A stretch of DNA of 64,000 nucleotides from Gammaproteobacteria bacterium (GTDB taxonomy: Bacteria > Pseudomonadota > Gammaproteobacteria > GCA-2400775): assembly GCA_015492075.1 (NCBI GenBank), contig WGFU01000037.1, forward strand, positions 100,119 to 164,118, given 5' to 3'. Both the position numbers and the translations under genes were made by a program. Below, in pieces: positions 56,694 to 61,647 of this stretch. Within the stretch, counting starts at the first letter, position 1. Each line of letters begins with the position of its first letter. Under the pieces are notes generated by a model, which made no database searches, was not told the origin of the DNA, and saw nothing but the letters and a program-made list of their open reading frames with translations.

Positions 56694-56728
56694 TGCGCTG
56701 AACCCGTTAAGCGCAGCGCGCACTGTTT
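56692..56728. terminator. Probable terminator between convergent topA and cysB
   Basis: AGTGCGC...GCGCACT stem followed by GTTTTA at the topA stop. Confidence 0.4.
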
Positions 56729-57648
56729 TAACCTGCCATCACTTCGTCAACCCGCTCGCGCGTCAAATGTGGCGCGAAAAACCGGATAAAGTCATAAATA
56801 TAACTGCGTAGATAGCTGCCACGGCGAATGCCAATGCGCACCGTACTCGACTCAAAAAGATGGCTTGCATCAACAGCACCTAAAGCTGCATCGCGTTCTT
56901 TTGAAAAAGCCACCGATGCCAGTATGCCAATGCCCAAACCCAGCTCGACATAGGTTTTGATGACGTCTGAATCTATCGCCGTAAGCACGATATCAGGGCT
57001 TAAACCGCGATCGGCAAAGGCCTTGTTGATTTTAGAGCGGCCGGCAAAGGCGTAGTCGTAGGTAATAATCGGATATTGCGCCAAATGCTCAAGACTGAGT
57101 GGCTCAACAGCCAACAACGGATGCCCAGGCGGCGCTATGACACAACGGTTCCAATCGTAACAAGGCATCGTCGCCAACTCGTCGTAGGTGGCAATGGCCT
57201 CCGTTGCAATCGCGATATCGGCCTCGCCCGATAATACATACTCACATATTTGGGTAGGATTACCCTGGTGAATATTAAGACTTACATCAGGGTATTGCTC
57301 GGTAAAACGTTTAATCGCGGGCGGCAGAGAATAACGCGCTTGCGTATGCGTTGTCGCAATCGAGAGACTACCGCTGGCTTGCTGCGAAAACTCTTCTGCC
57401 ACGCGCTTTATACTATGCGCATCTTGCAACACCCGTTCAATCATTGCCACAACTTGGTAGCCAGGCTCCGTGAGTCCAGTAAACCGTTTACCATGTCGCA
57501 CGAAGATGTCGATCCCCAACTCCTGTTCGAGTTGACGAATCTGACTACTGACGCCTGGCTGCGCGGTATTAAGGCTCTGCGCGGCAGCAGAGACGCTCAG
57601 CCCGTTACGCGCCACCTCACGCACAAAACGCAGTTGCTGCAATTTCAT
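56728..57648 (-). CDS. cysB: LysR-family regulator CysB
   Basis: MKLQQLRFVREVARNGLSVSAAAQSLNTAQPGVSSQIRQLEQELGIDIFVRHGKRFTGLTEPG; divergent from sulfur-assimilation genes. Confidence 0.92.
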   Translation of the reverse strand: MKLQQLRFVREVARNGLSVSAAAQSLNTAQPGVSSQIRQLEQELGIDIFVRHGKRFTGLTEPGYQVVAMIERVLQDAHSIKRVAEEFSQQASGSLSIATTHTQARYSLPPAIKRFTEQYPDVSLNIHQGNPTQICEYVLSGEADIAIATEAIATYDELATMPCYDWNRCVIAPPGHPLLAVEPLSLEHLAQYPIITYDYAFAGRSKINKAFADRGLSPDIVLTAIDSDVIKTYVELGLGIGILASVAFSKERDAALGAVDASHLFESSTVRIGIRRGSYLRSYIYDFIRFFAPHLTRERVDEVMAG

Positions 57649-57671
57649 TGTCCGCACTCCTTATATCAGAA

Positions 57672-57809: not shown

Positions 57810-58598
57810 ATGGCCGTAGACTGGATGCTGACCGCTGCCGGCTTTGGAGTCGGGGTCTTAATTGGTCTTACCGGTGTCGGTGGCGGCTCCCTGATGACAC
57901 CGTTATTGATCTTCCTGTTCAAGGTTGAACCTGCTGTCGCCGTCGGTACCGACCTGCTATTCGCGGCGATCACCAAAACCGGCGGTATCTGGGCCCATGC
58001 CCGCCGCCGCACGGTTGAATGGCGCATTGCCGGCTTGCTCGCACTAGGCAGCGTCCCAACGGCGCTGCTGACAGTGTATGCCATAGGCCAGGTTGGCACT
58101 GGCGATGCGATCATCGAGAAGTTCATTACTCATGGCTTGGGTATCGCCTTGATTCTAACAGCGGCATCGATACTGTTTAAATCACAGATGCACTTATTAG
58201 GTGATGGTCTCAGGCAGCGTTACCCTGCGCTACGCGCCTATCGCGACCGTATTACCGTACTCGCTGGCGTGCTTTTAGGGGTATTAGTACCAATATCCTC
58301 AGTTGGGGCGGGGGCTTTAGGTGCAGCGATCCTCATGTTCCTGTATCCTCGCATCCCCACGATTCGAATTGTGGGAACAGATATCGCCCACGCGGTGCCC
58401 CTGACCGCTGTTGCCGGCCTGGGGCATTTGCAACTAGGCACCGTAAACACCGGCCTTTTAGCCGCATTATTACTCGGCTCACTGCCTGGTATATATATAG
58501 GTAGTCATTTAGGCACTGTCGTACCAGACCGAATCATGCGACCACTATTGGCCAGTGTTCTGGTCATTATCGGCATCAAATTTACGCTGGTATATTGA
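57810..58598 (+). CDS. TauE/SafE-family sulfite exporter-like permease
   Basis: GFGVGVLIGLTGVGGGSLMTPLLIFLFKVEPAVAVGTDLLFAAITKTGG; multi-TM. Confidence 0.85.
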   Translation: MAVDWMLTAAGFGVGVLIGLTGVGGGSLMTPLLIFLFKVEPAVAVGTDLLFAAITKTGGIWAHARRRTVEWRIAGLLALGSVPTALLTVYAIGQVGTGDAIIEKFITHGLGIALILTAASILFKSQMHLLGDGLRQRYPALRAYRDRITVLAGVLLGVLVPISSVGAGALGAAILMFLYPRIPTIRIVGTDIAHAVPLTAVAGLGHLQLGTVNTGLLAALLLGSLPGIYIGSHLGTVVPDRIMRPLLASVLVIIGIKFTLVY

Positions 58599-58644: not shown

Positions 58645-60684
58645 ATGTCGTTGGCTGATTTTGCAGAAATTGATCGTTATGAAGAAAGTGTCAATGCCTT
58701 TCTCAATGACGAGATGGATGCCGCTCGTTTCATGGCCTACCGTCTGCAACATGGCTGTTATGGCCAACGTCAAGACGGCGTGCATATGCTGCGTATCAAG
58801 CTACCCGGCGGCAACATCAATGCCGAACAAATCGAGGCCGTAGCCGACATTCTTGAAAATCAGTCGCAACACAATCTTGCCCATATCTCAACACGTCAGG
58901 ACTTCCAGGTTCACTATATTCCGTTAAAGGATACGCCAGCTGCGATGCGGCGCTTGGCTGAAAGCGGGCTCACCACTCGTGAGGCCTGTGGTAACACAGT
59001 GCGTAATATTACCGCCTGCCCACTGGCAGGGGTTTGCGCACACGAACACACTGACATTAACCCCGTATTGGATGGCGCGGTTAAGCGCTTTTTACGCCAT
59101 CCCCTGACACAGCATTTACCGCGTAAATTCAAGATCAGTTTTTCCGGCTGCGAAACAGACTGTGCACAAGCCATGATTCACGACCTGGGCGTTGTCGCCG
59201 TCCATCGCGATGGAAAATTCGGCTTTAAAATCTTAGCGGGTGGTGGTCTTGGTCATAAGCCACATGAAGCCATAGTAGTGGAAGAGTTCCTTGAAGAAAA
59301 ATATTTGCTCGCTTCGATGGAAGCATTAATCTCAATGCACCATAAATATTCTGATCGCAAACGTCGCGCTAAAGCCCGCATTAAATTCCTGGTCGGCACC
59401 TTCGGTGTCGATGGCTTTTTAAAAAAATATACCGAGGAGTTTGAGCGCACCAAGGTAGCTTATGCCGATTACAAAGTTGACCCTATCGAATGGAAGGCAG
59501 GCGCCGATAATTCCAGTATGTCTGCTGGCGCACCACGCTCGGTAATCAAACAAAAACAAAGCGGGTATCACGTCTTTCCCATCAGCTTGACCTTGGGTGA
59601 TATGACGGTAGAACAATTGCGTGGCGTCAGTACCATTATGCGCGACGAAAAGATCAGCGGCGCACGTGCAACACAGGACCAAAACCTGATCCTGTTAAAC
59701 GTTCCTGCCGACCGTATCGAATCAGTACGTACCGCCATCGCCAATATTGGCTTATCCGAACCCGAAGCTGGCGATGACATTGTTGCCTGCCCTGGCACTT
59801 CTACCTGTCGTCTAGGTATTACCTCATCACGCATTGCAGCCGGCATCATTAGCGGCGGCAAAAATGATCTGCGCCTGCGTGTGAGCGGTTGCCATAATGG
59901 CTGTGCGCAACCAGAAACTGGCGATATCGGTATCTATGGGGAAGGCAAACGTCGGCATGGTAAATTGATCCCCCATTACCAGATGTATATCGGTGGCGAT
60001 GGCCGCAGCACCGGCGGTCTGGCTCTTAAAGGCCCTTCCGTCCCCTCTGCGCGCATCAATACCGCCATTCAAAGACTGCAAGATAGCTATGCTGACGAGG
60101 CCACAGCCAATGAAAGTTTTTATGACTGGGCACGCCGCCGTGGTATAGACAGCATCAAGGAGACATTAGCCGATCTGACCGAAATCAATGAAGAAGATGT
60201 AGCAGACATTCTTGCTGACCATGGCGAATCCTCTGACTTTAAAGTCTTGCAATTAGGTGGCGGCGAATGCGCAGGTGCTTCGCAAGATTTTATTGCATCA
60301 CGCTTTGCCGAAACTGCTTATGAACGTGACTGCCGTAATTCCTTTGCCGCACAAAACCTGGCTAATGAAGCCGTCGAATGTGTCGAGCAAATCGGCCTGA
60401 TGGTTGGTCAATCGCTACAGTTTGTAGCAGGCAAAAAACATAGCGATGAACTCGATGCAGTTTTAAACAGCCTTAGTGAAGGCCCGCAGATCTGCACCGA
60501 TCTGGCGACAGAATTTAAGCACCTCGTTAAGCAGGCCCAAGCTTTTCGCAATGATTTCGACAGTATGAAATTCAACGAAGAAATTGCCGGCAAAGTAGAT
60601 GAGTGGGTACGCAATGCTGCCGAGGCATGCCAAAGCATTGACTCGCAACTTGACCTTACTGTGTCATTGGTAAAAAAAAAATAG
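58645..60684 (+). CDS. cysI: Siroheme nitrite/sulfite reductase (CysI-like) with C-terminal extension
   Basis: HISTRQDFQVHYIPL...ACGNTVRNITACPLAGVC...SFSGCETDC...ACPGTSTCRLGITSS...VSGCHNGCAQPETGDIG; roughly 140-aa extra C-terminal region. Confidence 0.88.
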   Translation: MSLADFAEIDRYEESVNAFLNDEMDAARFMAYRLQHGCYGQRQDGVHMLRIKLPGGNINAEQIEAVADILENQSQHNLAHISTRQDFQVHYIPLKDTPAAMRRLAESGLTTREACGNTVRNITACPLAGVCAHEHTDINPVLDGAVKRFLRHPLTQHLPRKFKISFSGCETDCAQAMIHDLGVVAVHRDGKFGFKILAGGGLGHKPHEAIVVEEFLEEKYLLASMEALISMHHKYSDRKRRAKARIKFLVGTFGVDGFLKKYTEEFERTKVAYADYKVDPIEWKAGADNSSMSAGAPRSVIKQKQSGYHVFPISLTLGDMTVEQLRGVSTIMRDEKISGARATQDQNLILLNVPADRIESVRTAIANIGLSEPEAGDDIVACPGTSTCRLGITSSRIAAGIISGGKNDLRLRVSGCHNGCAQPETGDIGIYGEGKRRHGKLIPHYQMYIGGDGRSTGGLALKGPSVPSARINTAIQRLQDSYADEATANESFYDWARRRGIDSIKETLADLTEINEEDVADILADHGESSDFKVLQLGGGECAGASQDFIASRFAETAYERDCRNSFAAQNLANEAVECVEQIGLMVGQSLQFVAGKKHSDELDAVLNSLSEGPQICTDLATEFKHLVKQAQAFRNDFDSMKFNEEIAGKVDEWVRNAAEACQSIDSQLDLTVSLVKKK

Positions 60685-60908
60685 CTGATGATATTGTCAT
60701 TGATATCAGCGAATATAGTTGCCCGTTGCATTACATTAAAGCACGTAATGCACTAAAAGAATTTGCTGGCGGCAGCCGCATCAGCTTTATTGTCGACTCA
60801 CCAGAGTCGCAGAGAAAACTATGTGACAGCCTTAAAGCCGACGGCCATCGAGCGGCTGCACAGAATAACCATAAAGAGCTAAGAGTAGCCGTTGTCACAG
60901 CAGCGTAA
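60672..60908 (+). CDS. TusA-like sulfurtransferase domain, -1 frame relative to cysI and lacking its own canonical start before the Cys-Pro motif
   Basis: Frame after A10 reads KKKIADDIVIDISEYSCPLHYIKARNALKEFAGGSRISFIVDSPESQRKLCDSLKADGHRAAAQNNHKELRVAVVTAA*; the ORF track begins only at TTG 60726, after the Cys. Confidence 0.7.
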   Translation, partial: KKKIADDIVIDISEYSCPLHYIKARNALKEFAGGSRISFIVDSPESQRKLCDSLKADGHRAAAQNNHKELRVAVVTAA

Positions 60909-60945: not shown

Positions 60946-61647
60946 ATGAGCCTTTCAGCTGCATTGCAAGCTAAACTCGACAATACCATCACGGTATTAA
61001 AAAGTATTACCGACGATTATTCGCCCGCGACTTTCGCCAATAGTTTTGGCGCGGAAGACATGGTACTCACTGATTTAATTAATCAATATGATGTCGATAT
61101 CGAGATTTTCAGCCTCGATACTGGCCGCTTGCCGGCGGAGACCTATCAACTCATGCAGGAGGTCAGCAGGCGTTATAGCAAACCGGTTATCACCTATTTC
61201 CCTAACACCGAATCAGTCGAGAACTACATTAGAAGCAATGGGCCTAATGCCTTTTATGATAGTGTTGAGCTACGTAAAGGCTGCTGCTTTGTTCGCAAAA
61301 TCGAACCTCTGCGTCGCGCCATCGCCAACAAAAAAGCCTGGGTCACCGGCTTGCGTCGCGAACAGGCTGTCACCCGCGCAGACTTGCCTATTTCAGAGTG
61401 GGATGCCGATAACGGCCTACAAAAATTCAGTCCGCTGGTCGAATGGTCTGAGGACGATGTCTGGGAATATTTACGCGAACAAAAAGTACCGTATAACGAA
61501 CTGCATGACAAACACTATCCAAGTATTGGTTGTGCTCCCTGCACCCGCGCCGTCAGTGCTGGTGAAGATGTTCGTGCCGGCCGTTGGTGGTGGGAAAACC
61601 CTGAAAGCAAAGAATGTGGCCTGCATTCAAAAACGCCTAGCAGCTAA
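60946..61647 (+). CDS. cysH: Phosphoadenylyl/adenylyl-sulfate reductase, Fe-S (APS reductase) type
   Basis: FSLDTGRLPAETYQLM...ELRKGCCFVRKIEPL...GCAPCTRAVSAGEDVRAGRWWWEN...KECGLH: CC and CxxC cysteines of Fe-S type enzymes. Confidence 0.93.
   Translation: MSLSAALQAKLDNTITVLKSITDDYSPATFANSFGAEDMVLTDLINQYDVDIEIFSLDTGRLPAETYQLMQEVSRRYSKPVITYFPNTESVENYIRSNGPNAFYDSVELRKGCCFVRKIEPLRRAIANKKAWVTGLRREQAVTRADLPISEWDADNGLQKFSPLVEWSEDDVWEYLREQKVPYNELHDKHYPSIGCAPCTRAVSAGEDVRAGRWWWENPESKECGLHSKTPSS

Follow-up and report, generated by a model that had tools for sequence, protein, structure and literature searches.

How can a sulfur-carrier domain be produced when it lies behind the stop codon of a reductase gene and in another reading frame? 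The question is raised by a locus in the window, a stretch of 64,000 nucleotides on contig C37 of a gammaproteobacterial assembly (1.65 Mb, 80% complete). A sequence-only reading had described a sulfite reductase gene ending in GGT-A10-TAG, followed in the -1 frame by a TusA-like domain, and had proposed that slippage or frameshifting on the run fuses the two. The sequence was re-read and the description holds: the run and the stop codon are where they had been placed, the -1 frame is open between TGA 60651-60653 and TAA 60906-60908 and yields the peptide as claimed, and the first ATG, GTG or TTG in that frame is the TTG at 60726, past the Cys-Pro codons. The inverted repeat noted downstream of the run was found as well (Table 1).

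The reductase-TusA junction

Table 1. Features of the reductase-TusA locus (positions in the window)
Feature	Position	Strand	Remarks
CysB-family LysR regulator	56728..57657	-	divergent; context
TauE/SafE-type sulfite exporter	57810..58598	+	upstream of reductase; Pfam; context
NirA/SIR-type siroheme [4Fe-4S] reductase ORF, 'cysI-like', 679 aa	58645..60684	+	C-terminal helical domain; zero-frame end ...TVSLVKKK-stop
-1 open frame, 84 codons + TAA	60654..60908	+	TusA-like domain; no ATG/GTG/TTG ahead of catalytic Cys
A10 run, proposed slippery site	60672..60681	+	reductase/TusA linker, disordered
TAG stop, zero frame	60682..60684	+	directly after A10
Possible stem GCTGAT/ATCAGC, 3' of run	60684..60710 (arms 60684-60689/60705-60710)	+	6-bp inverted repeat
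TusA/SirA-like sulfur-carrier domain (DIVIDISEYSCPLHYIKAR...)	60690..60905	+	Pfam TusA E=1.2e-9; AlphaFold; Foldseek
Cys-Pro motif, TGC CCG	60720..60725	+	invariant among 33 aligned domains
cysH, (P)APS reductase	60946..61647	+	next gene; own AGGAG and ATG

The exporter, the reductase, cysH and the CysB-type regulator together form an assimilatory sulfate-reduction context. The reductase contains two NIR_SIR and two ferredoxin-like half domains with conserved cluster cysteines, as siroheme [4Fe-4S] enzymes of the NirA/SIR type do. It stays far below the equivalog cut-off of NADPH CysI (TIGR02041; 119.9 vs 756.6 bits) and is closer to NirA, so that the name 'cysI' is owed to genomic context only. 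A helical region without a Pfam match (residues about 515-665 of window 58645-60681) separates the reductase from the TusA linker. It is predicted to form a helical bundle and is kept in homologues, TusA-less ones included.

The -1 peptide indeed belongs to the TusA/SirA fold, as had been suggested. It exceeds the curated Pfam cut-off for TusA (PF01206; 38.3 vs 28.6 bits), its AlphaFold model (pLDDT 88) shows the beta-alpha-beta-alpha-beta-beta arrangement typical of that family, and its best PDB folds in Foldseek are the SirA-like 3hz7 and E. coli TusA 3lvj (TM 0.82-0.84). In a modelled in-frame relative, linker residues 678-682, where the A-run falls, have pLDDT < 50; a variable number of Lys residues should therefore be tolerated at this low-confidence position.

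Reading frame and A-run among homologues

Related genomes were searched initially (four others from the window's genus and more distant members of the class), and 78 loci were then obtained by scanning 84,980 species genomes. Each junction was examined in all three frames and again with a TusA HMM made from in-frame fusions, near-identical pairs being counted once, by one representative each, in the locus classes. At 31 loci the reductase and TusA are in frame without an A-run of at least 8. TusA is out of frame at eight loci, from eight species; all eight are in the -1 register, which requires one extra nucleotide, and all carry A9-A10 in the linker. Three further loci possess the run and are still in frame (A9, A9, A11). 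None of the 25 TusA-less homologues has the run, and not a single locus with out-of-frame TusA lacks it. In all, 11 homologous loci thus have an A-run of nine or more (A9-A11) at this linker.

The out-of-frame arrangement occurs in three of four lineages of the window's genus and in five of 20 examined genomes of another order. In the genus the junctions read A10-TAG (the window), A9-G-TAA (G004) and G-A10-G-TAA (G002), and two genomes with a near-identical locus, G001 and G003, have A11 in both, one genome per species having been sampled. In the second order the run is A9 in L046, L048, L057 and L061 and A10 in L051. Variation of the run length, which the sequence-only reading had wished to see checked, thus exists within the genus (A9+G, A10, A10, A11) and goes with the frames -1, -1, -1 and in frame. 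Its other check, whether relatives carry the fusion in frame, was answered as well: they do so outside the genus, and without the run. The roughly 31 in-frame, run-free homologues make the reductase-TusA fusion a real and common protein. The in-frame loci with a run (G001/G003, L052 with A9 and L060 with A9) would reach a stop within a few codons after a one-base slip in either direction. A natural control is L103, which neighbours L057 and L046 on the tree and combines an in-frame TusA with the lack of a run.

On the tree, the run is confined to two well-supported, deeply separated lineages and requires at least four changes of state (two gains plus two losses, or equivalent); the reading frame of TusA needs six changes. 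Because the run occurs in only two lineages, the uniform -1 pattern does not amount to many independent events. Out-of-frame TusA is tied to the run (Fisher p 1e-6) and the run is absent from TusA-less homologues (Fisher p 0.005), both values ignoring relatedness; an independent-pairs test on the tree, underpowered with two run-bearing lineages only, gave p 0.25.

Long A-runs are rare in these genomes, as counted by pattern searches. The 1.65 Mb source genome has 14 sites of A9 or longer on both strands, two of them A10, and across the genomes surveyed the density is 1-20 per ~2 Mb. Members of the second order mostly have 1-8 such sites per about 2.4 Mb. The other genomes thus match the source genome in density or fall below it, the lowest value being 1 per 2.5 Mb (G377). 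Any one sense stretch of 100 nt would contain an A9 or longer run with a probability of about 1e-4 to 5e-4. Run-bearing loci have 44-66% GC, and the reductase Lys codons of GC-rich carriers favour AAG (22:4 in L051, 21:5 in L052, 20:5 in L060); the linker run is nonetheless pure A. The TusA profile and fold, the rarity of A9+ sites and the recurrence at the same linker confirm that the junction is not a product of chance.

Across the genus the TusA frame has a dN/dS of 0.06-0.20 at dS 1-1.8 (near saturation), though it is out of frame in three of four lineages; these ratios show that purifying selection acts on the out-of-frame TusA. A PF01206 search of four genus genomes returned the reductase-linked TusA as the only match. 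In the second order, a separate tusA is also present in most genomes.

Some 25 run-free homologues without TusA (L058, L062-L068, L071-L073, L076-L092 and others) keep the reductase and the helical domain, and the distribution suggests that TusA may have been gained or lost several times among the reductase homologues. In L056 and L069 a domain at the TusA position apparently lacks the catalytic Cys-Pro and is possibly a degenerate TusA.

Proposed slippage on the A-run and competing explanations

We propose that the run is a conserved programmed recoding site, from which one gene would give both the reductase and a minor reductase-TusA fusion; on comparative sequence grounds we put the probability of this reading at about 0.75. 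Most transcripts would match the template in their number of A's; their translation would end at or just past the run and leave a short-tailed siroheme sulfite(-type) reductase. RNA polymerase would slip on the run in a minority of cases and add one A (or the ribosome would shift by -1), and the shifted frame would join the TusA carrier domain to the reductase by a flexible Lys linker, with KKKIADDIVIDISEYSCPLHYIK as an example of the predicted fusion peptide. Relatives that are in frame in DNA (A9 or A11) would show the opposite polarity, producing mostly fusion and some truncated reductase. The original idea of a fusion by slippage or frameshift is supported by the in-frame, run-free relatives, by the run kept within the genus and by its recurrence in another order. 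The locus shows the features by which transcriptional-slippage genes are recognized, namely an A/T run of about nine or more and conserved shifted-frame coding under selection; the run is conserved in two lineages, not in every homologue.

The fusion could also arise from uniform transcripts by programmed -1 ribosomal frameshifting on A_AAA_AAA/G. The slippery heptamer X_XXY_YYZ is present in the zero frame at all run loci, every run containing A_AAA_AAA or A_AAA_AAG (trivially so in A9+), the -1 frame is needed in eight of eight cases, and in the window's genus a stop codon directly follows the site; ribosomes are moreover prone to slide on poly(A) Lys stretches. Yet A7 would be enough for the ribosome, and all cases have at least nine; in many bacteria, selection against slippage starts to show at this length (PMC1088944). 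An SD-like element at the right distance was found in none of the eight out-of-frame loci, and neither it nor a downstream structure is conserved among them as a stimulator. As for the latter, folding with shuffles and consensus folding returned a weak stem limited to the genus, significant among the out-of-frame loci in G002 only (z -4.3), and not kept in the second order. Being weak here and absent outside the genus, the stem is probably not essential, and it was discarded as a stimulator. Since every run reaches nine whereas a heptamer suffices for ribosomes, and since the out-of-frame loci have no SD-like element and no shared downstream stem, we clearly prefer transcriptional slippage and hold ribosomal shifting to be unlikely. 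The earlier leaning towards RNA polymerase thus remains the favoured option, as a preference drawn from run lengths and the lack of a conserved stimulator.

Long homopolymers are hypermutable, and run length and frame do vary between species (A9+G, A10, A10, A11), so replication slippage might toggle the TusA extension within a population as in phase variation. We consider this improbable: none of the 11 loci with a run is in the third frame (for a random register, and with relatedness left aside, P would be about 0.012), the same -1 register is maintained across very divergent species, and phase variation usually targets surface or restriction genes, not sulfate assimilation. A homopolymer sequencing or assembly error, or a recent inactivating indel making a pseudogene, had been regarded as a serious alternative, and it is true that the run-bearing genomes all appear to be metagenome-derived assemblies and that a single base sets the frame. 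This alternative did not survive and is rejected as very improbable. The same arrangement recurs in eight genomes from different projects, each time in the -1 register; at least six other A9 runs well within long ORFs of the source genome leave the frame intact; and TusA, the sole one of the genus, is intact and constrained at dS > 1. Separate translation of TusA, by reinitiation or from a non-standard start past the zero-frame stop, is barely credible. Stop and coding sequence overlap tightly and ATT/ATC codons precede the Cys, but in seven of eight loci the stretch from the upstream stop to the Cys is devoid of ATG, GTG and TTG (the exception, L046, has a single GTG well ahead of the run), no SD is conserved, and the A-run would be left unexplained. 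It was rejected for want of a conserved start codon.

Known systems and possible function

Most known examples of functional transcriptional slippage in the chromosomes of bacteria come from IS elements, secretion systems, dnaX and reduced symbionts. The class of mechanism is thus already known, and what is new here is a recurrent case in core metabolism; our literature search found no paper tying sulfite reductase or TusA to slippage. With less assurance than for the recoding site itself, we still think it probable, from the comparison of genomes, that RNA-polymerase slippage governs how much of a core assimilatory enzyme is plain reductase and how much is carrier-tethered, that this arose or was retained two or more times in Gammaproteobacteria, and that the genus's only TusA would be reachable solely via slipped transcripts in most of its species.

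The closest likeness is Citrobacter rodentium tssM1, where A11 is followed by a stop, slippage is proven at a rate of 20-25%, transcripts carry 10-15 A's, and neither product is dispensable; there, too, the run stands right before the stop and a required C-terminal domain is encoded beyond it in another frame (PMC4256274). Yersinia pseudotuberculosis tssM3 has the reverse polarity, being in frame in DNA and truncated by the slip, like the A9/A11 in-frame relatives described here (PMC4256274). The tssM genes belong to a secretion system, have poly-A runs in only two bacteria and slip by proven slippage (PMC4256274), whereas our case concerns a biosynthetic enzyme, a recurrent run in two lineages and predicted slippage. 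Thermus thermophilus dnaX resembles it in having A9 on the sense strand and a shorter and a longer product from one gene, but dnaX is in frame in DNA and encodes a DNA polymerase subunit (reviewed in PMC5009743), while most loci here need the slip to reach the extension. In Thermotoga maritima pgk-tim (cited in PMC4256274), a metabolic enzyme gene likewise ends in a frameshift that fuses a second enzyme domain; those are two separate glycolytic enzymes, whereas the partner here is a sulfur-carrier domain, fused directly in relatives. The poly(A) frameshifts of Buchnera and Blochmannia (Tamas 2008, Wernegreen 2010; cited in PMC4256274 and PMC3711429) are similarly ancient, selected and located in A tracts, but belong to AT-rich reduced symbionts with many runs, in contrast to the very few runs and 44-66% GC loci of our genomes.

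E. coli TusA and the SirA-like UPF0033 proteins share the fold and the Cys-Pro motif. Unlike E. coli TusA, the domain described here is fused to a reductase, in genomes without recognizable TusE/DsrC (no match over cut-off in 12 genomes) and with DsrE/TusBCD-type proteins in one of 12. The classical Tus relay is therefore not apparent, and a link to a Dsr/TusBCDE relay was dropped. In the simplest role that we can infer, the TusA Cys would accept or deliver sulfane sulfur near the reductase. A mixture of plain and TusA-tethered reductase would serve to load part of the handled sulfur on the carrier Cys, and such a mixture of free and tethered enzyme makes sense, because both forms are natural (25 TusA-less homologues and 31 constitutive fusions). 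The arrangement suggests that siroheme reductases and a TusA carrier are functionally linked. Its natural -1, in-frame and run-free versions offer a ready comparative system for the origin, persistence and polarity reversal of slippage sites. Gene callers will overlook the TusA domain or label such genes as frameshifted.

In the genus genomes G000-G004, the source genome being 80% complete, we detected no other TusA, no DsrC/TusE over cut-off and no DsrE/TusBCD; the missing Tus partners bear on the supply of sulfur for tRNA 2-thiouridine and Moco. Standalone tusA-like ORFs (G153/G264) were considered as a split version and rejected, as they occupy an unrelated locus between other genes, and a phylum-wide search round G371 found distant TusA proteins only. 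The standalone gene of G264 (L131, 1456-1731; the same in G153) is flanked by an SDR gene and a metallo-beta-lactamase-like ORF, with no reductase adjacent, and bears the CPLHYVKAR signature of the reductase-fused type.
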